Part shown: piece after piece, positions 4,001-42,956 of the stretch
How positions within the stretch are numbered: position 1 is the stretch's first letter
How the letters are laid out: every line of letters starts with the position of its first letter
Source of the DNA: Clavulina sp. PMI_390
Taxonomy: Eukaryota; Basidiomycota; Agaricomycetes; Cantharellales; Hydnaceae
Reading direction: 5' to 3'
NCBI GenBank assembly: GCA_015039315.1
Contig: WIDE01000165.1
Location: forward strand, 1-49,881
Length of the DNA: 49,881 nucleotides
Position numbers and translations under genes: made by a program
The notes under the pieces: model-generated
Seen by the model: only the letters and a program-made list of their open reading frames with translations
What the model was told of the DNA's origin: nothing
Databases searched by the model: none

Positions 4001-6190
4001 ATGTCGCCGAATACAGTCCTTGCTATCTCCTCAGATGTTGTGGTGAAGATTCTATGCGAGGCCCATTATATGGATATCGTGAGGTGCCGTGCAGTATGCA
4101 TTGCCAGTAAGATTGACCCAAACCTTTGTTCATAAGAGTACGATTTTCCGTATTTCAGGTGTGCAAACTATGGGAATCTACGATATCATCTTCGGTCGCT
4201 CTGCAATATGTTGTCTGGCTAGGCATACACGGGAAAGAGGATGGGGATGATTCTTTTCAGCCTCGAACGTCTGCTGAACGCCTCCAGTTACTGTTGGACC
4301 ATGAACAGGCGTGGGCTACTCTTCGGCCTCGGATCCGCAGTCTCCATCCTATTCTTAGGTTCTCTCCGTCCTACCTTTGTGGACCAGACCTGCTACTTAT
4401 TCGTAGTATGCGTCTTCCTGACCAGACTTCTGAGGGTGTGCTTCGCCACCTACCCTCCACAATTGCCGCTAGCGATGATACTTTGGATGAAATAGTTGGG
4501 GAGGGCTTGATTCTTTCTTTATGTATTGTGGACACCGAGAATGATCTGATAGTTTACACTGGTATAAGGTTTGTTCTCAGCTGTTTGCATGCTCAGCAAT
4601 CAAACTTACCAATAAGGCAGAGGAGGGGTTTCTACGGACTTCAAAATTCATATCCGTTCCTGGCATGCGCCATCTATTAATCACCCTCTCGCTTTGACTC
4701 CATCCCTCGACTTGAGGTCTTTCGTCCAGATGCCAGAGGATGCCTTGAATAGGTGGAAAGGCCCAGTATATTCGCCTCTCTTAAAGGTCACGGGGCCCTA
4801 CGTTGTCTTACAGTACTCTCTATCGAGCTACCCCCACCCCTTTACGGATTCATGGGGAGTGCAAACTCACCACTCGGCTTCCATCATTCTGGTACTGAGT
4901 TGGATTACTGGCCAGGTCGTAGCAGTGAGTACTAGATTAACGAGCTTTTTCTCTAAATTTGACTACACTATGTCTTTCTTTAGAGATATGTGTTTCCGTG
5001 GCGAAGAGGCGAACACTACGAAATCAAAGAACTTTCCCTTGTTTCGTCAACAACGTTGATTGTCCCGGAGGTTCACTATATCGGCGCGATAAGTCAGGAA
5101 CGCAGATACGAGCTCTCTGTGTCGCTCCACGTCATTGACTTCTCCAAGTCCTCCGGTATTGACGACCTCGGTTGTCCAATACCAACTCTCACTGGCATCT
5201 TCATGCTCCCAGCCTTCGAAGATCACGATCGCAAGGAGGTAGTCACAATAAAGTCCGGCTGTAGCGTCAGTAATGAAGATCTAGGATCCCATTGGCCTCC
5301 AGGTAGCAACCCCTCAACTGCTGAAAAACCGTTCCGCCAATACCATAAAACAGATGACAAGGTTTTCACCATCACCATACAGCGGGGTTTCTACGGGCCC
5401 AAGCTGCTATTTGCGATTCAAACGAAAATCTTGACTATCTCGAATGAGACACCTGATTGCCCGACTCCATGGGTCCGCTGGAGCGAGGCGAATGCGGGAT
5501 GCATCTGGATCCCACGTCATTCGGTTGTAACGACTTATGGGGAGCGGGTAGCTATCGCGTCCTGTAATGCGTATCAATTTGACCTCGCCTATGATGGAAG
5601 GTGGTACCTGGAACTGCTTGATTTTAGCCGTGCGCGCGTGAGGCGGCTTGATATCTTGCGGAGAAGTGATCCAGGCTCCCATGAAAAATTCCCTTCCGGT
5701 AATGCTGAGGTACCACAGGTGGCACCACAGGAAATTAGTGCCATAGCAAGACAAATAATCTGGCCAGAACCTTGTGCGAGTTTCAACAATGACAATGTGC
5801 CTACCTTGCGCAATGCGCTACAATCACCCACCGAGGCCTCTTCTCAATCCTCCGCAGATGCTTCCCTCAGCGGTATCCGTTTTCTCCGTACCATCCTCCC
5901 GCTTCCTGGATCACGCCGCAGTAACGATGACTCGTTCTTGGAGATGAGCATGGACGCAGAGAGGATCATTCTTACCATGCCACACGTAGGTGTCGAAGCT
6001 TGACTGCTGGGCTTAGTTGACTGACTAATTTCGCCGATATCTCCCTGCCATGCGTTGATTATATCGTAACACACCCCGTGCTCTTCACTAGTTTGTGGAT
6101 CATGCCGAGCCTGGTGACTTGGTGGACACTGATGACCATGGCAGAAGGCTGCCACCAACTCGATCGTTTATGGAAATCATTACATTTTAA
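4001..6190 (+). CDS. F-box family protein C (complete)
   Basis: This is the third tandem copy, predicted at 635 residues. Exons are 4001-4093, 4159-4568, 4621-4924, 4984-5985 and 6092-6190. The F-box is spread over exons 1 and 2 (DVVVKILCEAHYMDIVRCRA, then VCKLWESTISSSVALQY). The ATG at 4001 was chosen because it gives an exon 1 of almost the same length as its neighbours. The exon 4 core holds LTGIFMLPAFEDHD, LELLDFSRARVRR and MDAERIILTMPH, and the protein ends FMEIITF. It is closest to copy D: both have WLGIHGKEDGD after the F-box and RRGE/RRNE after the third intron. A role as an SCF adaptor is known for the family; anything more specific would be a guess. Confidence 0.85.
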
Positions 6191-6352: not shown

Positions 6353-8552
6353 ATGGAGAATAGCCCTTTCAGCACAAATTCAGATATTATTGAGAGAATC
6401 CTCTTCCAGGCGCATTGGATAGATATCTTGAGGTGTCGCATAGTACGTCTAAACTGCAGATCATGCCCCTAGTTGGATCTTGATGTACCGAGTTCCTCTG
6501 CTTAGGTATGTAGGCTATGGAACTCCATGATATCGTCCTCGACTGCCATCCGGTATATGGTATGGCTTGGGATACATGGAAAAGAGGATGGTGATGGCTC
6601 ATCCCACCATCAAACATCCGCCGAACGCCTAGCACTACTACTAGACCATGAGCGCTCGTGGGCTACTTTACAGGCTCGATTTCATAGCCGCCACCAATTC
6701 GATGAGAACTCGATATACTATCCTTGTGGCTCGGATGTCGTCTTTGTTGGTAAACAGCATCCCCCTCCACAGCGGGGTTTCGAAGGGGTCCTTCGCCACT
6801 TGCCATCCACAATCGCCCCTAACGGCGACCCTCGAGACGAAAAATTCGTGGGCGATTTCGGCCTTTATACATGTTGGGTGGACGTCGAGAACGATCTGGT
6901 TGTCACCAGAGTTGGGTGAGTTGAAGATCATCCCCCCCTGCAGTTGAATTCATTGGACATACCAAATAGTCGCGATTCTATGATAAAGCTTCATATACGC
7001 TGCCTACATGCCCCACATGCTGATCATCCACTCGCTCAAGAACCAACAATAGACTTGAAGCGTTTTCTCGAGATGCCGCATGGCCGCTTTGATAGGTCAA
7101 ACTCGCGTTCCGGATATGGTTTCCTGATGATCACATCGGGGCCATACTTGATTGTTCAGCATTCTTTAACTAGCTACTCGAGTTCTGGTAGTGATAATCG
7201 GGGACTCGACGATCCCCTGTCGGCCTATACAATCTTGGTCTTGAGTTGGATCACTGGTGAGGTGTTAGCGGTAAGCTTTGCTTCAGCAGCCAAGTGTAAG
7301 GGACAAATTAATCAGATTCCATCTCCCCAGCGATGTGTCTTCCCGTGGAGAAGGAACGAATATGATGAAATAAAGCAATTTTGTCTTATTTCGCCAACTG
7401 TGTTTGTTGTCCCAGAGGTTCGCTGGATCGGCCCTGTCAACCAGGAACGCCGCTATAAGCTCTCCATATCTCTTCACGCTTTCGACTTCTCTAAATCGTC
7501 CACCACTGATGAGCTTGGCTGCCCTGTACCAACTCTGATTGGCATCTTTTTGCTTCCGGTATTTGAGGATCAGGATCGCGGATGCCAGCTTACGATCAAA
7601 CTTGGCTGTAGCGTCACCAGGCGCGAAATGCTACCCTACTGGCCCTCAAGTAGCAAGGGACCGGTCACAGATAAACCGTTCCACCCTCATCATCAGGTTG
7701 ATGACAAGATCTTCACTATAAGCGTGCAGCTGGATTCAAACGAGCGCAATATGCTGTTCATGACGTATACAAGATCCCTGCTCGTCTCAAACAGCGTACC
7801 TACCAACCCGGTTCCGTGGGACATGTGGGGTAAAGCACATGGGGGATGTCTCTGGATTCCGCGCGATTCGGTCGTGGCAACGTATGGGCAGCGGGTAGCA
7901 ATTGTGTCCTGCCGTGCAAATCGCTGGAGACTACAAATGGAACTGGGATGGACTCTGGAATTGCTTGATCTCAACCGTGCACGCACGAGCCGGCTGGTTG
8001 TTTTGCAGAGCAGCAATGACGATGACTTGTCTCCCAGTGACTCACACTCGGAAACTATGGAGAATCCAGCGGCCTCTGAATCGGGACCTCCCACTCTCCC
8101 CATGATGTGGCCTCCCCCAATTGAGAATCTTGATGACTACGATCAGCTGACCTTGCGCATTGCACTTCATTCGCCTATTGATATGTTTCCCCATTCTTCC
8201 CAAAACATATCTCTCGATGTTACTGCTGGCACCCTTCGATTTGCGCATAACGTTATGCAACTTCCTGGCCTGCGCCGCTGTAGGGAGAGTTGGCGGCTGG
8301 GGTTGGACATGGATGCAGAGAGGATCATTCTAACTATGCCACACGTGCGTCCCGATCTCTGTCTTCCCGAAAGCTTCGTCCCTGGCACAACCTAAACAAC
8401 CTTTTTTTCTCCCTCGCGCTCGATCCATATATTGACGATTTGCTCAGGTTGTGGACCGTGCTGAGGCTGAGGCTGAAGACGAACCAGGGACGGATCAGTA
8501 TGGCGATGTGCTACCACCGACGCGGCCCTACATGGAGATATTCGCCTTTTAA
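6353..8552 (+). CDS. F-box family protein D (complete)
   Basis: This is the fourth tandem copy, predicted at 639 residues. Exons are 6353-6442, 6506-6915, 6970-7270, 7331-8344 and 8448-8552. The F-box halves are IIERILFQAHWIDILRCRI and VCRLWNSMISSSTAIRY. The exon 3 acceptor at 6969 rather than 6943 keeps the phase-2 intron shared by all copies. Intron 3 is short and has no stop in frame, so a retained-intron reading is possible but disagrees with the paralogues. The exon 4 core has LIGIFLLPVFEDQD, LELLDLNRARTSR and MDAERIILTMPH; the C terminus is YMEIFAF after an acidic EAEAEDEPG stretch. The SCF adaptor role comes from family knowledge. It ends 158 bases before the carboxylase gene. Confidence 0.85.
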
Positions 8553-15683: not shown

Positions 15684-18026
15684 ATGCGTGCCGTTGCCTG
15701 GGTTGCTAGCGTCGCCAGTGCGCTCGCCGCCACCCCAGCTTTAGCTGTCCCACAACAACAAGATCACTCGAAGCGATTTGACGACTATTCGATCCACACA
15801 GAGCGATCTTTGATTCCTCCTGATTGGGCACTTCGTAGTCTCCCTGAACATGCGTCGCCTGCTCATGACAGACGTGAGGCTGCTGGCTTTGACGATCTGG
15901 TCATCCCAGTCCGCATCAACCTCATCCAGAACAATATCGATGAAGCTCATGGTCGGCTGATGGATATCTCTCATCCTGAGAGCTCCAATTATGGCCAGCA
16001 CTTGACTCCCGAAGAAGTTGCAGAACTCGTGAGTCCATCTATTTTGGTGTTGCATGTCAAAGCGATGTCTTGGCGCACACAAGATCCTCTCAGTATGAAA
16101 CAGAGCTAACTGGCTGCCGCATGTTCAACCCAACCCCTCTTTCCCCATCTTAATCGAATTAGTTTGCTCCGTCCGACGAGTCTGTCGATGACGTCCTCGC
16201 TTGGCTCATCGACGCTGGCCACTCTGTCTCGCGGGAAGACAACTACGACCACTTCAAAGGGGCCATCACCGTCAAGATGCCGGTCTCTCATGCTGAAGAC
16301 CTACGTAAGTCCGCCAGTTCGTTGCCTGGATTTGCATTCCATTATGAGTTAATGGGCGCTAATCATGTGTCTGATCCAATCCTCCACGCCTTGATGGACG
16401 TTTGACGACCAACCACACCTTGCAATATATTGGCGCACATTCCTTGTTGACAGTCAGAACAACCTACGAGATATACGAGCACGGTCCTTCAGGGACTCCA
16501 CATGTGGCTTGCACCTCGTATTCCGTTCCCTCGCCGATCGCCCACCACATCGACTTCATCACACCCACCACTGATTTCGATATCCATGTCCCTAACACTC
16601 GGAACGCGAAGCGTGACGGTTCCTCGGGCACGAGCACCGGCCCCAAGTTTGTGGCCGATATCGACATTACCACTCATGATGCTGTCGGCACCTCAAAGTG
16701 CGACCAGGCGATCACCCCCGCCTGCCTCCGCGCCCTATACGGCATCGACTACACACCCACTAAGAACATGCCCAATGGTTTTGGTGTGGTTGAATACACT
16801 CCTGCGTCGTACAACCCCGAAGATCTCGATATGTTCTTCGAGAAACATGCACCTGCACTTGTAGGTAAACGCCCAGCCAACAGGTCCATCGATGGGGGTG
16901 TGCTTGATACGACCCACAAGACCCTCAACATCAATGGCGAGAGCGACCTTGATCTCGAATACGCCATGGCGCTTGTCGGCCAGCACCAGATTGTCAGCCT
17001 TTACCAGACTGGCGACACCGTCATTGGGGGATCACACAATACTTTTTTGGACGCTCTCGATTCATCTTATTGCGCTGGAAACGATCCGAGCTATGATCCG
17101 ACGTATCCTGATACCAAGCCTGGTGGTTACAAAGGGAACTCGTGCGGTGTTTACAAGAACGAGCTGCCCAAGGTCGTCTCTACGTCATATAGCTATGACG
17201 AGTTCGGGTTGACCCTCGCATACAAGAAGAGGCAATGCAACGAGTATTTAAAGCTAGGTCTTCTGGGTGTCACCTTTGTCTTCTCGAGCGGGGATAATGG
17301 TGTTGCTGGGAACGGTGACAAGTGCATTGATGCGAAGACTGGGGAGGTTACGAAATCTGGAACTAGAGTGAATCTCTCTCCTCGCGCCTGTTTTTGGTAG
17401 TAAAGAGAACCCGATTTACTCACTATCCATCGGCCTTTTTTTTTTGGCAATAGTTCAACCCTTCTTACCCAGGTACTTGCCCATACGTCCTTGCCGTCGG
17501 AGCCACCGAGGTCTACCCTGGCAAGAAGGTGACAGACCCCGAAGGAGCCTCCAATGAGGTCATTTACTCTGGTGGCGGATTCTCGAATCACTTCCCGTTG
17601 CCGACCTACCAGAGCACGGCGGTGAAGAAATATTTCGCCCAACACAAGCCCTCCTTCACCGGGTCACAGTATGACAACACGATGAAGACGCGCGGGTACC
17701 CCGACATCAGCGCGAATGGCGCCAAATACGTTGTTGCTGCCGCGTCCAAGTTCACGAAACTCTACGGCACGTCGGCTTCGGCGCCTGTCGTTGCCTCTAT
17801 GATTGCGCTCATCAACAATGCGCGCCACGCCAAGGGGAAGAAGCCCGTTGGGTTCATTAACCCGGCGCTCTATGCACACCCCGAACTATTTCATGATATT
17901 ACTTACGGCAGGAATCCGGGGTGCGGTACGAAGGGCTTCGAGGCTGTCAGCGGGTGGGACCCTGTGACGGGTCTGGGCACGCCTAGGTTCAAGAAGCTAA
18001 TGACATACTTCTCTAACTTGCCTTGA
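15684..18026 (+). CDS. Secreted sedolisin / tripeptidyl-peptidase (family S53)
   Basis: This is a serine-carboxyl peptidase active at acid pH, predicted at 657 residues. Exons are 15684-16028, 16163-16304, 16454-17367 and 17454-18026. A signal peptide (MRAVAWVASVASALAATPALA) is followed by the activation prodomain (HGRLMDISHPESSNYGQHLT, then FAPSDESVDDVLAWLIDAGH). The catalytic domain begins after about residue 220. Catalytic residues are visible: Glu325 and Asp329 in GESDLDLEY, the oxyanion Asp443 in SSGDNGVAG, and the nucleophile Ser574 in YGTSASAPVVASM. The calcium-site pattern FHDITYGRNPGC and SGWDPVTGLGTP closes the protein. It probably serves extracellular or vacuolar protein digestion. 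The intron 3 donor is GTGAAT, chosen because KSGTR then joins FNPSYPGTCPY as in the family. Confidence 0.93.
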
Positions 18027-18436: not shown

Positions 18437-20477
18437 ATGATTCCGGACCAGGTGCTGCTGGAAATTCTTCAATGCTCTGATTTTTTGGATATTGTTACAT
18501 GCCGTGCGGTACGCCCATATCGCGCTAGTAACAGCTGCCGTGTTTCGTACAGACTTCATAGCGATCAACTAACTACATCTTTCCAGTAGGTGTGCCGAGC
18601 CTGGAACGCTCTCATTTCATCATCTATGACTTTGAAATATATCGTCTGGCTTGGTATAAGCGGGAGAAAAGATGGAGATCCCATGTTTATCCCAGGGACA
18701 ACCGCAGATCGTCTCAAAATGCTACTTGAACTAGAATCGGCTTGGGAGAATCTTGCGCCTCGGCGCGTTGAGTCGCTCAAAGTCGTACCTAGGATCTATC
18801 CCGAGTCAATTAATTTGCAAAACGGGATGATAGACTATTATGCGGATGAAAGTTCAGGCGTAGCGCAGCTGTGTCTCCAGAAGCTCCCCTCCATTGTCTC
18901 CCCAGTCGCCAAGCTCGGAGAACCATCTCAATTTCGCGTTTGGTGGGCACCGCACAACGATGAACCAACATGGGACCTCCACCAAACAAAACTGTTTGTG
19001 AGGGTTAGATTGTGCGTGTAGTATCCTCCTTTGGGATGATTTATTGGCTTTAAACGTTTGAGTTTTCTAGTGGCGACTTCCCCCCTGAGAGTTTGGTTGA
19101 TCTGGTGTACCTCAAGGATTTGCAGGACCCTTCATTTCCACCCCCGAGGGTTCGCATATCTGAGATTCCCGCTGCTGCTCTGCAGCTACTGCCGCCACCT
19201 GGTGCTGGTCCAAATACTGTTTTTGACCTTCAACGATGCACTATTCATGGGGATTTCCTTCTCTTTGAGATTGAGGCTCGCCCTCTCCTTGAAGCAAAAG
19301 ATGGTGCACTCTGTCTCGTGCTTTGGAATTGGGTTGAGAGCGCTTTAGCAAATGTGAGTCCATCGTCTCGAAACTAGCAGCTTCTGACTATTATGAGGCA
19401 CAGCGATTCTGGCTTGATCCATTCTGGTGGACAAATCAACATCCATATGCATGTGAAATGCTGGATTCATCGACGGTCATTGTGGTGCACAATCGGACAT
19501 TGCTATCCCCATTTATCGCAGTTAGGGTTTACACTATCCCTAAGGAGGGAGGAAGCGAGTCATATGGTATGGCTCCCATCCTACAACGTACCCTTCTTTT
19601 ACCAGAAATCGGGGAAAAATCCAACCTTGATATTACTTTTACTGTCTCTGGGCTCGAGGAATCTCCAATCTGGTCTTCTACTGATTCATCAAACCAGTTT
19701 CACATGAGGTCCAACCTCCCGGAGGATCTCAAGCCCTTCGGCTCAGCTGATGCTACACGCAATCGGCTCTGCCAGATTCGGCTGACGAGTCATGAGCGCA
19801 GCAACAATCGACGTCGCCTTTATACCTGGCGGTTCGTATTCTTGGCTGGAACCCTTCTATGCGACTATGATGGGGACGTGGTTCCTTGGGAGCAATGGGG
19901 TGCACCAAATGCGGCATGCTTCCATGGTGTACCAACAATTTTGGGACCTGATGGCGACGGACCGATTGAAGCGATGGCTGGCTCTCGACTGGCACGCCTT
20001 CATGCACCATCATCTGACGTGGAGGGAGAGGGTCACGAGGTTAAGCGCCAATGCCATATACTCGAGATACTTGATTTCAGTAAATGTCGGGTGTGGCGTC
20101 ACATGAGCCCAAGGTCGTGGCCAGAAGCGCTCAGCATTCCAGATTCTGCAGCATACCTTCTCGGCGATGCACCCGCACAGCATGATACCGCCAAGGGACT
20201 CTCAACATGGTCGGAAAACTCTTCTCCACCAGATGTATTTCTCAAATGGCCACTATCCGCCGGTCTTCCCTTCACCATTACCAGAGTGAAGATACCTGGT
20301 TGGAAGAATAAAGCCTTCGCTCGGATGGTGATGGATTCTGAACGGATAGTTCTCTCCAGCTCGGTAAGGTTTCCCAAAATCTGTGATATCGGTTGTTAGC
20401 TGTACTCAACATTTCTTACATCTGATGACAAGCTCTCATCCGGCGAGACTCCTGCAGTGCTAGTAGCTACTTTCTAA
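18437..20477 (+). CDS. F-box family protein E (second subfamily)
   Basis: This is the first of three tandem copies of the second subfamily, predicted at 593 residues. Exons are 18437-18508, 18590-19011, 19071-19353, 19404-20363 and 20433-20477. It starts MIPDQVLLEILQCSDFLDIV, then TCRA; after intron 1 follows VCRAWNALISSSMTLKY, so the F-box is again split at the same codon as in copies A-D. Further landmarks are WLGISGRKDGD, LQRCTIHGDFLLFEIE, MLDSSTVIVVHNRT, LEILDFSKCRVWR and MDSERIVL (equivalent to MDAERIIL in A-D). The last exon encodes only 14 residues ending VLVATF. Intron phases 0, 2, 0, 0 match the first subfamily. It probably acts as an SCF adaptor of unknown substrate. Confidence 0.85.
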
Positions 20478-20832: not shown

Positions 20833-22879
20833 ATGATTCCGGAACAAGTGCTACTTGAGATTCTCCAATGCTCTTATTTTCGGGATATTGTGATGTGCCG
20901 CGCGGTCAGTTTGCCTCGCGCGATATAGCTTTGCGGCGACTTCTACAAATGCACGATGGATCGCCTGATCGCATCTCTCCAATAGGTATGCCGAGCTTGG
21001 AACACACTCATCTCATCATCCATGACGTTGAAGTATATCGTTTGGCTTTGAATAAGCGAGAAACGGGACGGGGATGCCACGTTTATCCCCAGGACATCCG
21101 CTGACCGGCTTCGAATCCTGCTCGAACAAGAGTCTGCGTGGCAGAATCGTGCCGCTCGCCGTGTTGAAACGCTCGAAGTCGAGTCCGAAACCTACTTCGA
21201 TACTCTGCACGCCGGAGTTCTCGGCTATTATGTGGAAAGATCACCAGAAGTGCCTCTACTAGCTCTTCGTAGACTCCCTTCTATCATTTCCCAAGCTGAG
21301 GTTGGAGTCCCATCACAATTCCGTGTTTGGTGGGGGCAGCTTAATGACGGACCAGCATGGGACCTCCACCTGGCCAGCTTATTTGTCAGTGTGATTTTGT
21401 ACGTCAGCTCTCCCGTGATAATCCCCGGGCTATCAGTTCATTTCTCTCTGAATGTTAAATTTCCTAGCGACGACTTTGAGCCTGAAAGTCTTGTTACCCT
21501 CATATACCTTAAAGATTTGCGAGATATCTCACTACCGCACCCTCTGGCTGGAGTATCTAACATTACTGCAGCTGCTTTGGATTTACAACCGCATCCTGAT
21601 TTTGGAACCAGCGCTACATATAATCTCCAGCGCTGCACAATCCATTCAGACCTCCTCCTTCTGGAAATTGAATATCATCGCCTAGCTCGAGCGGAAGAAG
21701 TCTCTGTGTGCATTGTACTTTGGAACTGGGTAAAGGGTCATGTAACCACGGTAAGTCCCTCAGAAAGCTCCACTCAGCTTTACCTTCTGACAGTACTCGG
21801 TCCGCAGAGATTCTGGCTTCCTACCTTTTCATGGAGAAACAATCGATCTTATGACTGCAAGATGCTAAATTCATCTACGCTCATTGTTGTACACAATCGC
21901 ACATCCCAGGCCCCATTCATCGCGGTGAGAGTGTACGATCTCCCGGAGGTAAAGGCGACTGAGTCAAAGAGTTTGGCTCCCATCCTCCGCCGCACCTTTT
22001 TGATGCCAGAAGTTAATGAGAGTAACAAATTTGATGTTGCCTTCTTTCTCTCTGAACTCGAGGAGTCACCAAAATGGCCCCCAAACGCTTCCATGAACCA
22101 GTCACAGGCGGAGACCCATTCCATGAAGAACGCAAAGCCCTTCCGCCCGACCGGTAGTGAGCAGGAGCGACTTTGCCAGATTCGGTTGACGAGTCATGGA
22201 CGAAGTGGTAGTCGGCGTCACATTCATTCGTGGCGGTTCTGCTTCCTTGTTGACGTTCTACTACGGCGCTATGAGGAAGATATTGTGCCATGGGAACAAT
22301 GGGGGGCATCAAATGCGGCCTGCTTCCACGGTGTGCCAACGATTTTGGGACCCGAAGATGATGGGCCGGTTGATGCTATGTTTGGTTCTCGACTAGCACG
22401 TTTTCATTCGCCCCAGTCCTTGTGGGATGGCAACATTAGCAGCACTGATTATACAAACCACGTTATAGAGCTCCTTGATTTCAGCAAAAGTCGGTTCAGG
22501 CGCCGTATGAACCCAGATTCGTGGCCTAAGTTACCCAACGCCGCGCATTCTGCGGCCCTCCCCCTTGTGGAGTTTCTGCCACACTATGATACCGCAACGG
22601 GCCCCTCAACGTGGTTCATCAACTCCGATCCCCCAGAGGTCTTTATTGAATGGCCTTTGTCCGCCAGTCTCCCCTACGTCATCACGAGGTTTGCGATACC
22701 GGGCTGGAAAGATAAAGACTTCACCCAGATGGTGATGGATTCTGAGCGGATCGTTCTGACAAGCTTGGTAAGAGTCCCCACTATTTGTTATGTCAACTTC
22801 TAAACCTCATAAATATCCTTATTTTGACTGCAAGGTATCGTCTGACGGCCCTCCTAAAATGTTAGTCATCACATTCTAG
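20833..22879 (+). pseudogene. F-box family copy F, interrupted by an in-frame stop
   Basis: The copy has the exon plan of its neighbours: 20833-20904, 20986-21398, 21468-21750, 21808-22767 and 22835-22879, with exon lengths 72, 413, 283, 960 and 45. In exon 2 the conserved WLGIS/WLGIT motif reads W-L-stop-I-S because codon 21049-21051 is TGA, where E has GGT and G has GGA. One G-to-T change from GGA explains it. Everything after the stop remains open and well conserved, including LQRCTIHSDLLLLEIE, LELLDFSK-like IELLDFSKSRFRR, MDSERIVLTS and the C-terminal MLVITF, so the lesion looks recent. Alternatives are a sequencing error, or translation restarting downstream without the F-box. An in-frame ATG also exists 12 bases upstream. 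Confidence 0.75.
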
Positions 22880-23150: not shown

Positions 23151-25183
23151 ATGATTCCGGAATCGGTGTTACTCGAGATTCTGCGATGCTCTCATTTCTT
23201 GGATATTGTGAGATGCCGTGCGGTGCGTTTGTATCGCGCAAGTGATAATCCTAGCGGCCTCTATATAAGCTCACTACAATCGCTGCAATAATTTATAGGT
23301 ATGTCAAGCCTGGACAACACTCATCTCATCATCCGCGATGTTGAAATATATCGTCTGGCTTGGAATAACTGGACAGCATGATGGAGACGCCTCATTCATT
23401 CCTCGGATGTCGGACGATCGTCTTAGAATACTGCTCGGACAAGAAGCTGCGTGGGAGAATCTTGTTCCTCGGCGTGTTGAAACGCTCAAGGTTGCGGCCG
23501 AGAGTTATCTCAACACCCTACAGGATGGAACACTCGGCTACTGCACCGAAATAAGCTCATCGGAGGCGCTATTATGTCTTCAGAAAATCCCTTCTCTAAT
23601 CTCCCAAGTGGAGGTCGGGGTGCCATCCCAATTCCGTGTTTGGTGGGGAGAGTACGGCTTCGACGAACCAAAATGGGACCTCCACCACAGCAGCTTATTT
23701 ATCAGGGCAGTATTGTGCGCTCACAGCTCCTCGCTGTAGCTTCTGTTTTATTGGTTGATTTGTGTCTCAACATCAAAAATTCTAGCGACGATTTCGACCC
23801 TCAAAGTCTTCTTCCGCTCGTGTACCTCATGGATCTGCGGGACGTCTCACTTCCCCACCCACTAGCCGGCATATCTGAGGTTACAGCCGTTGCCCTGCAG
23901 CTGCAACCGCCTCCTGGCCCTGCGCCAGACATCAAGTTCATACTCCAGCAATGCACAATTCATTCGGATCGCCTTCTCTTGGAGATTGAAGGCCACCCTC
24001 TTCCTCGAACGAGAGACAATTTCATCTGTATTGCGCTCTGGGATTGGGTCAAGGGTTATACAGTAACAGTCAGTCTGACCCCTCAAAGCTGCCTTGTTTT
24101 CTGACCACACTTTGTTCACAGCGATTCTGGATTCCCCCATTTTGGTGTACAAAGCACCATTCGCATGCATGTGGGATGTTGGACTCATCAACAATCATTG
24201 TAGTGCACAACCGTACATCGCATTCCCCATTCATCGCGCTAAGATTGTACGAGGTTTGTAAGGAAGGGGAGGACGAGCTGGGAGATTTAGATCCCAGATT
24301 GCGCCGGACTTTTCTCCTACCAGAACTTGGTGAAGAGAATAGAAACCTTGACATCCGTTTCTCTCTCTCTAGCCTCGATGAATCAACAAAGTGGCCTCAA
24401 AACCCTTCAACGGAGCAGATCCCTATGAATTCTGATTTGAGGATGAATTCAAAACCATTCCGTCCTACTAGTGCCACGAGCGACCGGCTTTGCGAAATTC
24501 GGGTGACAGACCGCAGGCGTTCTTGGGAGCATACTTGTTGTTTCGTCTTCCTTGCCGAAGCCCTCCTCCGTGATTACGATGGTGAAGTTGTGCCATGGGA
24601 GGGTTGGGGTGCGTCAAATGCAGCATGCCTCCACGGTGTACCAACGGTGTTCGGACCTGGTACTGATGGGCCAATCGAAGCCATGTTCGGTTCTCGTTTA
24701 GCACGCCTTCATTCGCCCCGACCAGCACGGGGGGACGAAGTTCGCGGCATAAACCACACACTACATGTGCTTGAGCTTCTTGATTTCAGCAGGGACCGGG
24801 TCAAACGTTATGTGAACCCGTTTGCGTGGCCGAACACACTTGATAGTGGGGATTTTGCCACAGACCACCTTGGAGAGGCGCCGGCAGACCATGATACGGG
24901 CAGCGGGCTCTTAGCCTGGTCTGCAACATGGACGAGCCCGGGAATATTTACCAAATGGCCTCCCTCTGTTGCTCTCCCGTTTGTTATCAGCAGGTTGGAG
25001 ATACCTGAGTGGAGCGACAAAGATTTTACTCAGATGGTGATGGATTCAGAGCGGATTGTCCTGTGCACTTCGGTAAGGTCCCCGAAACTCTTTAAAGCCC
25101 TTTCCCACAACCCACTCAATATTCGGTTCCATTGCAAGGGTTCCTCCAACGAGACTCCTGAAATGTTGGTAGTGACTTTCTAG
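23151..25183 (+). CDS. F-box family protein G (second subfamily)
   Basis: This is the intact third copy of the second subfamily, 588 residues. Exons are 23151-23222, 23299-23714, 23786-24068, 24122-25072 and 25139-25183. It starts MIPESVLLEILRCSHFLDIV with the second F-box half VCQAWTTLISSSAMLKY. Later motifs are WLGITGQHDGD, LQQCTIHSDRLLLEIE, MLDSSTIIVVHNRT, LELLDFSRDRVKR and MDSERIVL; the C terminus is MLVVTF. Exons 1, 3 and 5 have exactly the same length as in E and F. Two donors are weak (GTGCGC after exon 2, GTCAGT after exon 3) but hold the conserved positions and phases. Function is as an SCF substrate adaptor by family knowledge only. Confidence 0.85.
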
Positions 25184-34105: not shown

Positions 34106-34114
34106 AGCAGTTGG
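34106..34114. repeat. Left copy of target-site duplication
   Basis: AGCAGTTGG here is repeated exactly at 40351-40359, directly outside the other end of the element. The next base (T) also matches, so the duplication is 9 or 10 bp. Confidence 0.7.
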
Positions 34115-34122
34115 TAGGCAGG

Positions 34123-34155
34123 ATCCCAGCCTCTCCTATAGGTAGAGGCTGGGAT
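34123..34155. repeat. Perfect hairpin at the left end of the element
   Basis: Two 12-base arms (34123-34134 and 34144-34155, ATCCCAGCCTCT and its complement) flank a 9-base spacer. The right arm is the tip of the left terminal repeat. The right end of the element has no such fold-back, so the left end appears to have gained an inverted copy of its own tip. Confidence 0.85.
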
Positions 34156-34256
34156 TACAATGAATACACGCTATAGTAGGCTTTACTGAATGGGCATAAA
34201 GGCACATTAAAAAATGCATTCAATCAATACAAAATTTAAGCGCCTTATTCAGAATC
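34144..34256. repeat. Left terminal inverted repeat
   Basis: It pairs with 40350-40230 in reverse complement. The best blocks are GGCTGGGA at the tip, AGTAGGCTTTACTGAAT, CATAAAGGCACATTAAAA, and TTAAGCGCCTTAT near the inner edge, in the same order and nearly the same spacing. The distance from GGCTGGGA to AGTAGGCT is identical (28 bases start to start) on both sides. The first ATG of the DUF6589 gene lies inside this repeat. Confidence 0.85.
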
Positions 34257-37200
34257 CGATGGCAGCGAGATCTGGTCGAAGGAACAGCACAGCCTCCAAG
34301 GTTAAGCTTGGTGACTTCGCTCAATTTTGTCCAGAACTTTGCATGCTACCGAAGTCTCCACACAAAGAAAACGCTCCCACACGTCCCAACGCCGCCTGCC
34401 CATTAGGAAGACCACGAAAGCACCCTCTTCCAGCCTCCAGTGATGTCGAGTCTTTCTCCAAACGGCGTCGAATAGCTATTACCGACAGCCTGACTGAGGG
34501 CCTTCCTTCAACCTTTATCCTCAACGCCACTCCACCTCCTGCGCCTGTATCATCTGCGAATGGAACTTCATCATTCAACCAACGGCTATACCTTCCGCAC
34601 AACTCGACTCCACCTGCCCTGCGGCCACGACCATTTCCACTCACTCCAGAGTCCCCCTTCCAGTCGTACGGTCAACCACTCCTCCATTCTTCCAAACCTG
34701 CTCTGCCGCCCATTTCCACTCTGCTTTATGTGGCGTCAGCCACTCGGCCCACTTGCGGGCTCTGTGGACATAGATTTATTGTGGACATGACTGAGAAAGC
34801 TGCACGTGAAGTGCGAGAGAAGGATTGTGGTACCTCGGTGATCTTCGACCTGCTTCGTCGACAGAGGTTTACTCTTGGTGGCTTCCTTGCCCTTGCTTTC
34901 ACGCCAACCAGCCCTGTCTTCAAGCTTTCCGAATGCGGAAGACAGATGGTTACCTCTTTCCTTGGTCATCAAACCATTAACCACCGACCAGTAGATATTG
35001 TCGATGCAATGTGGAAGCATCCCTATTCAAGAGACTCGGGCCCCATCACTGAAACCCCTATCCCGTTTTCCGCCTCCTATCCTCCTCCACATGCGCGTCC
35101 ACTTTCCTCTGAACCATCTCCGAATGAAGTTAACATTCCCATAATCCCTCCCCTCGATGCAGAGTTGTTTCCAGGTAATCCACATCCTACCTCACCCCAC
35201 TCTCCCCCTAACCTGTCAAATGACACCAGGGCAAGCGACTCAAAGGAGAGAGCACACATTGCGCTCTCCCGTTACTTTGTTACTCGAGTCAGCAGCTTCA
35301 TATCTGGCGAGATGAAACGCTTAGCCTCTCAGCCAGAGGTTCGGGCTCATCATGGACAGGAATTCTCCTGGAAGAGTCTGCTGTCATTTTCATTTAGTCA
35401 ACTCCAAACTAAAGTGATCGAGGTGGCGCCTACGCTTTGGACAGTTCTGGCAACGGCAGCAGTTGACACCTCCAAGCGGCCTGAAACTGCTTCAAGTGTC
35501 TCAGCTGATGGTCGTACGCACACGCCTCGCGATCCTTGGATTGTGAGTTTTTTTTTTTATCAGTATACAACGTCATCTGTCCAGCGGCTCATTCTTCGTT
35601 ATCTATAGTCGTGCACAGTGTCTGCTTTGATGCTGTTGTATCATCGAAATATTCGCTGCAATATCATGCAGAGTATCATCGGAACGACTCTTTTCAGTAC
35701 CAATGCCCATCGGACTGTCCATGCCATTCTTTCTCGTTTGGGCCTAAGTGTCGCTTATTCCACGACAACTAGCAGTCTTCACAACCTCGGCTTTTCGGCA
35801 TCACAGAAACTTCTCTCCATTGGGCGCCTCATGATGAATGGTGTCCTCTCAGCCCATGTTGTCTATGACAATATCAACCAGTATCGGCGAGACTGGCACA
35901 GCTCACTTGGCTCCAAGAACCACCTCGAGTCGGGAACGGCAGCGACTTGCATCATACAAGAGAACGTACCAGGTGGTGCATTTCAAGGTCCCCCCTGCTA
36001 CACTCGCCCACCTGTACCTCCACAAGAAGACATTACATTTGACACCCTGTGCAATGAGATCAACGAAGTGCATCTTGAGGAGACGGGAGTGGTTGTCATT
36101 CTTCGATCACTTTTTGATCGCCTTCCATATCTTGCCCGGCGTCATCCAGATCTCCTTGGGCAATTTCTGGACCATCGGATTGCAAAGCACAAACTGGCGC
36201 TCCGCAAGACAGCCTACTACCCGATGGAATGCTCTAATGCGGATGAATCGACAACAGCAGGGAACTTGGAAGTCATGAACGACATTGCCCGCCAGCTTGG
36301 TATTCAAGATGAGGAATTCGACCTAAAGCGGCCAATCATCACAGTGTCGGGTGATCAAATGTCGGTTGCGCGACTTCGCTCAGTGAAGTACGCAACGCAG
36401 TTCAATCGCTCTTGGTCTCAGGCAAAGCGTTGGGTGTTTCCGCTGATTGAGCTCTGGCATATGCGTTATGCTTATCTCCATGGGATCTTCTCATCTCATT
36501 GGTCATCTGCCACCATGAGCGGGGATACCGGCCTTCGTTCATGGGCGGAAAAATTGAACCGGCATATCAACCCGCTCAAACTTGACTTTTACCCTGCTGA
36601 CCGCCTCGCTACAACGTTGAAGGACGCTTTGACTCTCAACTTTGTTCGGTGAGCGCATTGTTAGCAGTTCGTCCCAATAAGAGCATGGAGCTGATCAGTT
36701 GTCAACAGTATTTATATTCGTCATAAATGTCCTATCCTCTCACGTCGTACCCCTAGCCCTACCTCCCTTCACCTTCACGAAGAGTTACTTGAGTCATGCG
36801 AAGCTGGTGGCTTTCTTCATAAAGCATCCAGTGAGGAACTCATAGCCATGGCACATTCGATCTATTGTACCTTTGGCACATCGCAGGCGGCAATCAATGC
36901 TCTTCATGAGTTGCCTGCAGCTGCGTCGGAGTTCTTTCACGAATTCTCGGCACCTCTTCCCTCCTATCCTCGTCCCTCCACCTCGTCCTTTCATGTTCCC
37001 TCATCTGAGCCAGGAACAGCTGATGTTGAGGCCGGGGTCTCGTTCCTGTCGAGTCCCACCGGCTGCGATTTGCCCTCCGATGAGATGATGTACACCGCCA
37101 ATCATCTTGCTGGGTTACATCCTGTTGCTGACGACGATGACGACAATGTTGAGGAGAAGTCTGATGCACATTCACATCCAAACTCGAACGCAAGCTCTGG

Positions 37201-37995
37201 AGCAGGGAGTAGCGGCTCAAAACACCTGCGGGTCCCCCTGGTCAAACCTTTACCTCCTCCAAAGATGCTGCAAGGTGACCTTCAGCTTTATAATACAATC
37301 ATCCTTTATCGTGACTTGATTCGATACTCCGAATTTCGTGAGAGTGTCCATGATGGGGATATTGGACGGACATTTGAGGTTATCAAGGTAATTTTTTCCC
37401 CTCCAATGTCAGTGGTAGGAATATATTGTCTCATGATCTTTATCAATTTCAGTGGCTTCGCTTCTACTTTTTTGGTTCATCACAATATAACTATGGGAAC
37501 GAGCTACTTCGACAATTTGCCGACTTTCGGTATCGATGTACCCCGGATATGCTTACAGCAATTATGGAGAACTATCTCGTCAATCCCTCAGGGCTATGTG
37601 GCAGGTGGCATGAACGCGATCTACTCCAAGAGCACCTTAACTTCTGGCTGAAGCGCGTATTCAATGGGCAACTTCTCACCTTTGACTCGTCATTTTACCG
37701 CGAAGCTGTCTCACTGAATATTGTTGGCTTCAAAGATCTTTCTCAGTCAATCTTCAAGACCCTTGGGCTTTCGCCAGTTCACTCAGGCCACACACTGCGG
37801 GATGTTACAGCGGACATCAATCACTTGGGGCTCTCATTCCTGGACGAGAATTTACACATTTACACTCCTGGTCGAGCTCAAACCTTCGCATGTAAGGACA
37901 GTGTCACACGTGGTGGCGAGAAGTTGCTGGATGGGAAGCTTGAGTCATTCCTCAACCAGTATGACGCAGAAGAGTACTTTGATGATCCTCATTAA
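34214..37995 (+). CDS. DUF6589 family protein, proposed transposase
   Basis: Four exons give 1196 residues: 34214-35542, 35609-36648, 36709-37387, 37453-37995. A second in-frame ATG at 34259, just outside the terminal repeat, may be the real start. The N-terminal region has an AT-hook-like CPLGRPRKHP and a Cys pair with CGLCGHRF. The middle and C-terminal parts match the DUF6589 pattern as I recall it: YHRNIRCNIMQSIIGTTLF, HVVYDNINQYRR (Asp530), IITVSGDQMSVARLRS (Asp692), ELWHMRYAYLHGIF, and ERDLLQEHLNFWLK (Glu1070, Asp1072, Glu1076). An acidic Ser-rich insert (DDDDDNVEEK) separates the last two. The order D...D...E would suit an RNase H-type catalytic core, but this is inference. Its position inside matched inverted repeats supports a transposase role. 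The last exon ends 29 bases before the helicase stop. Confidence 0.85.
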
Positions 37996-38024
37996 CTATG
38001 CTAAAGATTCTAATCATAATACTG

Positions 38025-40129
38025 CTAATCTGACCGCTCTCTTCGAAGTTTCATTGACAGCTGAGGGATTCGTTTTCCACTTGTCCGCACCAACATTGCG
38101 GCAACATTGCTACCCTTTCCATCCTCATCAGCCATCTGCTGGTCTTTGGCCACTTTGGGGCGTTTTCGAGCAGTCTCGTCTCCGGCTCCGCTTGTGCGCT
38201 TGGTCCCTTTCCCTTTCGATTGAGCTTTAGCTGCTTGACGGTCTTTGGTAGTCTTTGCAAGTTCCTCTCGTATGATTCTCATTTCATCCCATAGCGCATC
38301 AAGCTCAGCGTCCGTCAGCTGCCTTGTTGAGGAGCCGAGCTGCTCTTCAATCCATATTCGATGATCAAGCCGGTGGATATTCGAGGCAAGTTTCCTCAAA
38401 GCGGAGTCGGTGATGATCCAATTTGGCACCGCTGGCCGGTTCTTTGCTTGACGCTGTTTCCAAATAGACAAGCGGTACGTATGCAGCCTTGCTTCTGCTC
38501 CACTGATTAGATCTTCATCAAAAGGTGCGCGTTGGACTGGAAGCAAACTGGTCTGGGGAATGGCCTGTCGGCGGGGGACCGTACTTGGCGCTCTGCAGTC
38601 AAGGTATCGTTTTGCTGCTGTTTCTTCCTTCCCTCGCTCCTCAACGTCATTGTTGGCTTGGCAGACGGAGCAGCATGGAGCCTGAGCTATATATTCATCG
38701 CCATAGAATTCGCAGATTATTTTGCGCAGACACCTTCTATTTGGATTGAAAACGTCAACCAAGGCAGGCTGTATGCTTGCGCGGAAGTTGGCTCTCCTAG
38801 TAAGCTCAGCCTTTGACAATTTTTTTTTGCCGTACGCTTCACCACTCTCCTCTTCCCATGTAGGTGCCTGTATTTGTAATGGGGCATAGATCACAAATGT
38901 ACCTTGGGCAAGAGGAGGACGTCCTGCTCGACCACCCCACTGGGTAGCTTCCTCTAGGGTCTTTGGTAGACCAAAGAGGAGTACCTGCTCGATTTCTGCG
39001 TCCAATCCAACATTTCCAGCAGCAGTGGAAACAACAATACGAATGTCGCCCGCACTCAAGGAATTGAGTGTTGTTATTCGATCCGTCCCCGACACCATCG
39101 AGTGGAAAGGCTCAACCATGCGTTGTACATTTGGTAACTGCTTTGAGATCCGTTCGTTAAGCCACCGGATGACGCGAGTGGCTTTCTGAATGGTGTCGAC
39201 TGCAATCATGGTGCGTGGAATTTGTTTTGGATTGCTTAGGTTGGCCACAAGGTATTCGAGATCTGGAAACTCAAAGTCCTTGGTCGAATGTTGAATGATT
39301 CTTGTTTTATAGATGATGTTTGGGCGATCAATTCGTTGCCGTTCATCGTGAAAACGGCCTGGTGTGAATCCGAGCTCTTGCTGGGCCTGAAACCGACCAG
39401 TCTTGTTTTCAAGGGTTGCTGTCATAGCAAGAAATGCTATCCGTGTGGGGAGACGAGGTCGTAATGTTGTTATATGCTTGTAGGCATCGCGAAATTCTCG
39501 CCATGCACCAACAAGGTGAGCCTCATCGATCACACACATTCCGACCCTCCTCAGGAAATGCTCTTTCTCAAGCAGCTTCCGGAACCGCGATGTTGTGATC
39601 ATCTCCGGGCTTAGGAACAACAGCTCCCATTTTCCGTCTTCTGCCTCATTCCAGAGGTTTCGATTTGCTGTGGTAGCTTGCCCAAGGGATTCCTGATGAA
39701 TTGCGAGTGCCCGAAGCCCTCTGTTCTGCGCCTTCTGGACCTGTTTAGACGCAGATAAGATTGTGTTTGCTTTCAATTTAACAGTCAATAGCTAACCTGA
39801 TCGTCCATAAGTGCACGGGTTGGCTGGATGATGAGTGCAATGGAGGGTTTCCCCTGAATGGCTCGAGCCAGAGTAAAAGCATGGACAATCGCTGACTTGC
39901 CGCTTCCAGTTCCGGCAGTGAGGAAAACATCAGTACCATCAACAAGGATTCGAGTGCACGCTGCCTGCCATCCCTGTGGTGTTTCATGACCGAGACCATG
40001 AGGACCAAGGATGGTCCTGATCCAGTCCACATTTTGATCGCAAGCAAAATTCTCGCCATGTACTTCAATGATTTTTTTATGTAGTCGCAGGACCTTCTCT
40101 GCATATGACCCACCGTCCTCAGAGAACAT
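38025..40129 (-). CDS. RecQ-like superfamily 2 DNA helicase of the element
   Basis: Two exons (40129-39797, 39740-38025) give 682 residues. Helicase motifs are all present: TAGTGSGKSAIVHAF (Walker A, residues 71-85), IIQPTRALMDDQ (Ia), VIDEAHLVGAW (II, 181-191), LAMTATLE (III), TMIAVDTIQKATRVIRWLNE (IV), IVVSTAAGNVGLDAEI (V) and EATQWGGRAGRPP (VI). After them CLRKIICEFYGDEY and CCSVCQANN form the Cys pattern of the RecQ zinc-binding domain. A long helical, basic C-terminal region follows (KGTKRTSGAGDETARKRPK). No HRDC domain is visible. The start codon lies about 100 bases inside the right terminal repeat. It may unwind DNA during transposition or repair of the donor site; that role is inferred from location. 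Confidence 0.9.
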
Positions 40130-40229
40130 GGTGGTTTGAGAATAAACGTTTCATTTTTTGGTTGCAGAGCCCTGCGTTGGAGGTGCCAAGGAGCATAGGG
40201 TACTCAGGGTGCTTTCCAGGGTGTTCAGG

Positions 40230-40350
40230 GATTCTATAAGGCGCTTAACCTTATTTTAGGAGACTGTATTAATCAATATAATTTTAATGTGCCTTTATGG
40301 CCTATTCAGTAGAGCCTACTAGAGCGCCAATACGTTCCCGTCCCAGCCTA
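40230..40350. repeat. Right terminal inverted repeat
   Basis: This is the reverse complement partner of 34144-34256. It ends cleanly at 40350, directly followed by the duplicated AGCAGTTGG. Relative to the left copy it has a 5-8 base insertion (around 40252-40262) and scattered substitutions, so the two ends are recognisably paired but diverged. Confidence 0.85.
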
Positions 40351-40359
40351 AGCAGTTGG
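40351..40359. repeat. Right copy of target-site duplication
   Basis: AGCAGTTGG matches 34106-34114 exactly and sits directly against the right terminal repeat. The following T (40360) also matches the left copy. Confidence 0.7.
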
Positions 40360-41429: not shown

Positions 41430-42956
41430 TCAGGTTTGCTCTGTGTCGAACACACCCTCCAAGCGCAGCAAGACAGTGTCGCTTGAGGGCCGCTTGTTTG
41501 GCTTCTGCGCCCACATTTCCTCCAGTAGTGCCCAGAGTGTCGAGTCGACATATGGACTCAACAACATCCCACCTGGTCGATTCGGCCTCACGCCTTTGGC
41601 TACTTTCGATACTACTTTCCACTCACTCCGGTCCTCAGCGAACGGCATTTCACCGCTCCAGACGTTTAGCAACGTCATGGCGAGAGAGAAGACATCGCTC
41701 GCTGGGGTGGTGCGAAACTGTCCTTCTAAAGACGAGGATAGTTCTGGAGCCAAAAAGCGAATCCTACCGCCCTCTTGGCGCATCGTGCGTGTCCGGGTAA
41801 CTTCGTGACGAATACGGCATAGGCCAAAATCGCACAGAAGTGGATTTCCAGACCCGTCAAGGAGGATGTTTCCCTGCGGCAATCCAGAACACATCATGAG
41901 AAGGACTTCGTGGGACAGGCAAACCCGGCACTCACTGGGTGGAGGTCCCCGTGTATGACTGGCGGTATCCGTGAGTGCAAGTACACTACTCCTTTACTTA
42001 TACCAATGGCCTGATTAAGACCATGATGTGAGCATTGCGCACGAACCTGTGGTGTCCACGAGACGAGTTTGCAGCGGAAACTCACTATACCCCCCAAACT
42101 ATTCAAATTGATCGATTTATTAGAGATTGAATCTTGCAGAGAGCCACGCGCCATGTACGGCACGGTTGTCAGCGGGAGTGTGCCAGGTCCCTCGTGATAG
42201 ATCCCCAGAAATGGAATGATATTGGGGTGTATCAGCCGCGAGTGTGTGATAGCCTCGCGATATACAAGCTGCGCGCGCCTTTGAGTGACGTATATGGGGA
42301 GAAGGCTGGCGGACAGACTTGTATAACTCTACGTCCCAGTGGGTTCTCTCTCTCTTGGGGGGTGAGAAATAATTCTCGAATAGCTACGTCAAGGTCACCA
42401 AATCTCCCGTGATAGATAGTGGCCTCACCCCCTTGTCCGATGACATTCCTCCTATCGAATTGAACATTTTTCAACCTCAAGGTGGCAGGGATACAGCCTA
42501 AATGGAAACAAAAGTCTTGCAAAATCTTCAGTGTCTCTATGTACTCGTTAGAGTTAGGGCGCTGTGGTTCGAGGCCCTGTGATTCAACATGGTTTTAGAT
42601 GTGAAACGGCACTGAGAACCAAGGGAGAGGCACACGTACGGCGTATATACGATCCAACAGGACTACTGCCTCGTCTTTTGTTAACCGAGACAAATCGCAG
42701 CGAGGGTCAATACCCAGTCTTCCTCGAGTGGAAATGGAGATAATTGGTACCGAGTCCTCAAGGTCGCTATTGATATTCTTTGTTTGTTGTGAGCCAATCA
42801 CTGGCGCCAGAAAAAAAAAAAAAAAAAAAACAGCTATTGATCACTAACACGATGGTCCTTAAGAGTTTGTTTTTGAAGCGAAAAAAGGATTCCTGCCGCA
42901 ATTCCAATGAATTAAAACGATCACTGAGAGTAAAGGATCCACTCACGACTCCACAT
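41430..42956 (-). CDS. TKL-type protein kinase with atypical ATP-site residue
   Basis: Six exons give 388 residues: 42956-42947, 42800-42640, 42576-42319, 42268-42086, 42046-41936, 41873-41430. The N terminus (SRLTKDEAVVLLDRIYA) is a short helical region. The kinase domain starts near residue 98: glycine loop IGQGGEATIYHGRF (103-116), beta-3 strand VAIREL with Arg124 where Lys is normal, REAITHSRLIHPNIIPFLGI (alpha-C Glu148), catalytic loop VIHGDLHPGNILL (Asp238, Asn243), DFGLCR (Asp256) and FLAPELS. The HPNI, GSLQD and HGDLHPGN wording is typical of the large TKL expansion in mushroom-forming fungi. The ten-base first exon and an intron containing a 20-T tract (A20 at 42811-42830 on the + strand) make the start uncertain. 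Substrate and role are unknown. Confidence 0.78.

Follow-up and report, generated by a model that had tools for sequence, protein, structure and literature searches.

A 49,881-nucleotide stretch of contig WIDE01000165.1 from the basidiomycete Clavulina sp. PMI_390 (GenBank assembly GCA_015039315.1), hereafter the window, contains a 6,236-bp transposon (34115-40350) in which a gene for a DUF6589 protein (Pfam PF20231) and a gene for a RecQ-like helicase are bounded by imperfect inverted ends. That the element is a transposon follows from the presence of the same ends at unrelated places in the genome, from target-site duplications (TSDs), and from empty sites of its relatives, in agreement with an earlier note on this DNA that had proposed a two-gene mobile element. 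With a probability of roughly 0.8, we interpret it as a DNA transposon with two genes and a likely AcademH element, in which the DUF6589 protein is the predicted DDE transposase behind the 9-bp TSD. The new point is that DUF6589 is assigned a predicted role as a transposase.

Immediately outside both ends lies an exact 9-bp direct repeat, AGCAGTTGG (34106-34114 and 40351-40359). The earlier note had allowed for 10 bp; the 9 bp stand, and the tenth matching base, a T, is the first base of the element itself. An exact 9-bp repeat within two bases of both edges came up 57 times in 200,000 random placements, possibly including placements that overlap the real site. The left terminal inverted repeat (34115-34257, plus strand) has the tip TAGGCAGG and the right one (40229-40350, minus strand) the tip TAGGCTGGG; the element has 5'-TA termini. 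The arms that align with each other, 34146-34257 (112 bases) and 40229-40349 (121 bases), are about three-quarters alike and give an alignment score of 53. The maximum from 2000 block shuffles was 20, and none of 3000 random window pairs at the same distance reached 53, the highest of them (52) probably being a draw that overlapped the element.

Within these ends the DUF6589 gene (plus strand) and the helicase gene (minus strand) converge. Both are free of stop codons after splicing, which bears out the earlier description of two intact genes between imperfect inverted repeats. The DUF6589 gene model encodes 1,196 amino acids in four exons, three of which match PF20231 in a Pfam scan. Exon 1 (34214-35542), with the putative start codon, comes from the splice model and has no Pfam match. 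Exon 2 (35609-36648; E=2.3e-40) includes the predicted catalytic residues D286 and D448, supported by conservation and structural models, exon 3 (36709-37387; E=7.2e-09) is joined through the splice model, and exon 4 (37453-37995; E=5.7e-30) includes the conserved and predicted catalytic E832. Residues are numbered as in P0001, under which this gene is filed in the database (source name Clavulina sp. PMI_390); the P0001 gene model starts further downstream and ends differently from ours. The Pfam scan of the four exon pieces at E<=0.1 returned no family except PF20231, and an NCBIfam scan of one DUF6589 exon gave no match.

The helicase gene model has two exons, both on the minus strand, and encodes 682 amino acids. 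Exon 1 (39797-40129) carries the Walker A motif GTGSGKS and exon 2 (38025-39740) the DEAH box and the motif QWGGRAGR; all three are retained. Pfam identifies DEAD and Helicase_C domains in this gene, and NCBIfam RecQ families match exon 2 with scores under the curated cut-offs. Among solved structures, the best relative is annotated as "ATP-dependent DNA helicase Q1" (E=2.3e-20). The Pfam scan, which covered the exons of both element genes, matched no nuclease family.

Other copies were sought in the assembly from which the window comes, which comprises 39.4 Mb in 301 contigs. The earlier note had proposed to look in this genome for copies with the same ends and different flanks, and five with the same ends were found, all of them two-ended. 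The left end of the window element recurs at C254 with 84% identity and at the four other places with 75-83%. The copy at C254 is 1,259 bp long, and the remaining four are short (639, 634, 321, and about 333 bp) and match the element at their ends only. All six members of this family (the window copy, L016, L017, L018, L019, and L084) have a hairpin of about 30 bp in the left end, at 34125-34153 (plus strand) in the window (CCCAGCCTCTC...GAGGCTGGG), and none has it in the right end. For the outermost 48 bases, calculated RNA folding energies range from -20.8 to -28.0 for left ends and from -7.5 to -16.1 for right ends. Thus, the two ends of this family are not equivalent.

A PF20231 search of the genome recovered at least three DUF6589 loci, and at all three the gene converges with that of a RecQ-like helicase and both lie between inverted repeats, the arrangement for which the earlier note had proposed a survey. 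The whole genome yielded 29 recQ_fam matches (41 of 49 candidates scored), three at the DUF6589 loci and 26 elsewhere; with so few, the recurrence of the pair at all three loci is, by count alone, judged to be beyond accident. One of these loci, L026, is an element of 6,184 bp (G000:C236 353638-359821) with the terminal sequence TAGTCTCGTACCCAGACCCT. Its relatives are four two-ended copies (L076-L079), one copy truncated at one end (L080), and three single ends (L081-L083). L076 is counted among the two-ended copies, with 5,755 of its 6,999 bases being N and its content unreadable. Another locus, L025, has inverted arms of 196 bp (1287-1482 and 6713-6908) that are 100% identical, with an assembly gap abutting the left arm; the element may have inserted recently, or the identity may be an artefact of the assembly. 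The PF20231 profile matches at L025 and L026 each cross one TAG, pointing to an intron or to decay. We also observed a 58-bp direct repeat flanking L026 on both sides, outside the duplication, which could date from an earlier local duplication or have been left behind by the insertion.

TSDs were counted in the 11 two-ended copies whose flanks can be read on both sides. This leaves aside L080, where no flanking repeat was found, the single ends L081-L083, and L025 with its N gap by the left end. The duplication is an exact 9 bp in six copies (window, L016, L018, L076, L077, and L079), and is imperfect or of other length in four: 8 of 9 bases match in L019 and 6 of 9 in L017, L078 has 11 bp, and the TSD of L026 measures 8 bp when its two ends are retained in full. 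L084 has no TSD. The duplicated sequences differ between copies, and there is thus no fixed target word.

To find empty sites, the joined flanks of these 11 insertions (110 and 100 bases each) were compared with the same genome, and matches that touched a flank without spanning the join were not counted. Four insertions (L017, L019, L077, and L078) have a match across the join; for the window copy and six others the same genome yielded none. The matches are paralogous sites rather than alleles. Two were read at base level: the L017 empty site (C80:26586) has one copy of the 9-mer AATCCGCAT, relative to which the copies in the two flanks carry one and two transitions, explaining the 6 of 9 match of its TSD, and the L078 empty site (C202:36660) likewise has a single copy. 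The empty sites of L019 and L077 come solely from gapped matches at 71-73% identity. The L017 junction pattern also matches C234:82054 with three mismatches, outside the flank-search matches, for which chance is the only explanation we can offer, and that of L078 also matches the right flank of L078 itself. For L078 (C202:33897-34520) and L077 (C2:443516-444151), the empty-site matches share a contig with the filled site and lie only some 2 kb away, and these two insertions thus hit locally duplicated DNA.

The role that the earlier note had given to DUF6589, that of the transposase, is supported as a prediction: all three DUF6589 loci found are such elements, TSDs are present, related copies have empty sites, and the predicted fold is of the DDE type. 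All 99 proteins that we gathered, P0001 included, carry PF20231 and are fungal by source name, in a set that is uninformative on other kingdoms since the protein searches scored only candidates sharing most words. A search with an alignment gave four proteins, versus seven from a single sequence. In the DUF6589 alignment D286, D448, and E832 are conserved, and they are in line with the predicted fold. The best matches of AlphaFold models of two DUF6589 proteins are DDE transposases (Hermes, P element, and Tn5), with Hermes at the top, at 8-10% identity in the alignments and with weak Foldseek E-values. Neither Academ nor MULE (Mutator-like element) entries were among the best 50 matches listed per structural comparison, which excludes neither. 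A seven-protein DUF6589 profile compared with solved structures at E<=1 gave only four weak nucleoporin rows, and among viral contigs none of 86 pattern matches to this profile was confirmed as a relative.

Between D448 and E832, a histidine (H483) is conserved in 95 of 96 proteins, and the only other column with at least 90% histidine is residue 530, preceded by FYPA. The residue three positions before H483 is Q in 86 of 95 proteins and E in 7 of 95, and the C/DxxH feature, given for Kolobok in PMC9587614, was not seen at H483. The Pfam PF20231 model begins about 53 residues past the first predicted catalytic aspartate, which may be why the enzyme core was overlooked. We also noted a DUF6589 protein of Rhizoctonia solani (P0090) that is named in its source as "putative protein L294 [Acanthamoeba polyphaga mimivirus]"; its sole Pfam match at E<=0.01 is PF20231, and the viral name thus looks like a mis-transferred annotation.

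If DUF6589 is the transposase, it would recognise ends beginning with TAG and excise the element by a DDE reaction at the inverted ends. Insertion would then proceed by strand transfer to target DNA with a 9-bp stagger, giving the 9-bp TSD. We infer a role for the helicase in strand processing: it may act during or after the cut, unwinding the cut ends or the target DNA or helping in gap repair. Coding copies would mobilise the short ones in trans. Sequence data of the present kind are compatible with a cut-and-paste and with a copying route, and would not distinguish them.

A Pfam family of unknown function thereby gains a testable transposase role, and many similar fungal DUF6589 genes are likely transposon genes that pass for host genes in annotations; the same has already been stated for Academ copies in fungi (PMC6416283). 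Because short partners and empty sites occur in the same genome, the element offers a workable system for the role of a helicase in transposition.

Elsewhere in the window, six long plus-strand open reading frames of similar appearance lie within 287-25183 (287-1276, 4990-6003, 6944-8395, 19458-20399, 21232-22803, and 24044-25183). Three have a C-terminal motif like MDAER(I/L)ILTMP and three have MDSERIVL, and the four that were scanned had no Pfam match; by eye, they appear to form a local array and to belong to one unnamed family. A protein-kinase piece (41430-41897, minus strand) and a reading frame with a pro-kumamolisin activation domain (16402-17400, plus strand) are likely ordinary host genes.

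AcademH, a lineage of the Academ superfamily, was reportedly introduced by Kojima in 2020. According to papers that cite this work, AcademH has TSDs of 9 or 10 bp and AcademX of 3 or 4 bp, a difference tied to helicase and nuclease (PMC10045372); AcademH has a low copy number, and its hosts are Basidiomycota, Ascomycota, and Mucoromycota (PMC10799480); and in fungi, DEAD (PF00270) and recQ_fam domains occur in Academ copies, which annotations often present as host genes (PMC6416283). The earlier note had seen an undescribed class in the window element, a claim that is not supported, AcademH having been published with a helicase and 9-10 bp TSDs (PMC10045372), and had known of no named superfamily with this pair of genes, which is likewise unsupported in view of RecQ domains in fungal Academ (PMC6416283) and of KolobokH (PMC9587614). 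On the AcademH descriptions (PMC10045372, PMC10799480, and PMC6416283), an undescribed superfamily was dropped as the first choice.

It is nevertheless conceivable, if unlikely, that DUF6589 transposases form a DDE superfamily of their own, not descended from Academ, that acquired a RecQ-like helicase independently. DUF6589 is likened to Academ by description and not by sequence, helicases pair with more than one kind of DDE transposase, as in KolobokH (PMC9587614), and our literature search returned no paper naming DUF6589 (the string PF20231 appeared only in one unrelated paper). On the other hand, the helicase together with the 9-10 bp TSD, the kind of host, and the low number of copies fit AcademH as it is described (PMC10045372, PMC10799480, and PMC6416283). 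A narrower form of this idea, which we consider slightly less probable still, holds that the superfamily is widespread in mushroom-forming fungi and has an obligate RecQ-type partner, which would open the end or target DNA and set the 9-bp stagger. If that were true, helicase-assisted transposition would have evolved at least three times (DUF6589, AcademH, and KolobokH).

In hAT and P element transposases, a helical insert precedes the last acidic residue of an RNase H-like core, and MULE and hAT elements combine long inverted ends with 8-9 bp duplications. Hermes (a hAT element) and the P element are the best structural matches of the DUF6589 models, and the long ends and the 9-bp TSD of the window element would suit a relative of MULE or hAT elements with a captured helicase. 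However, at the E<=0.1 threshold the DUF6589 exons match PF20231 and no other Pfam family, C/DxxH is not seen at the conserved H483, the identity to Hermes is only 8-10%, and the window element has two genes, one of them a helicase gene; such an origin is very improbable.

KolobokH resembles the window element as a fungal DDE transposon that pairs its transposase with a RecQ helicase (PMC9587614). In the same source, however, Kolobok is characterised by TTAA-specific 4-bp TSDs, 5'-RR termini, and C/DxxH, whereas the element described here has 9-bp TSDs of varied sequence that are not TTAA, 5'-TA termini, and mostly Q, or in a few proteins E, in place of C/D three residues before H483. We rejected KolobokH on the 9-bp non-TTAA duplications and give it almost no weight. 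The idea of host genes lying by chance between inverted repeats could draw on the modest likeness of the window arms and on the window copy having no empty site in the same genome, but it was rejected and retains hardly any credibility given the same ends and TSDs at other loci, the empty sites of related copies, and the same arrangement at every DUF6589 locus found.

Of the named systems, AcademH is the closest to the window element: as described, it has a helicase beside the transposase, TSDs of 9 (or 10) bp, basidiomycete hosts, and a low copy number. Two of these traits were found here directly, an exact 9-bp TSD in the window copy and five further copies, and a RecQ-like helicase at 3/3 DUF6589 loci. 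On these two traits, compared by description rather than by sequence, the element is likely a member of AcademH. AcademX, which would be a sister lineage if the element is an Academ transposon, differs from it in having TSDs of 3 or 4 bp and a nuclease (PMC10045372), while the window element has 9 bp and a helicase.
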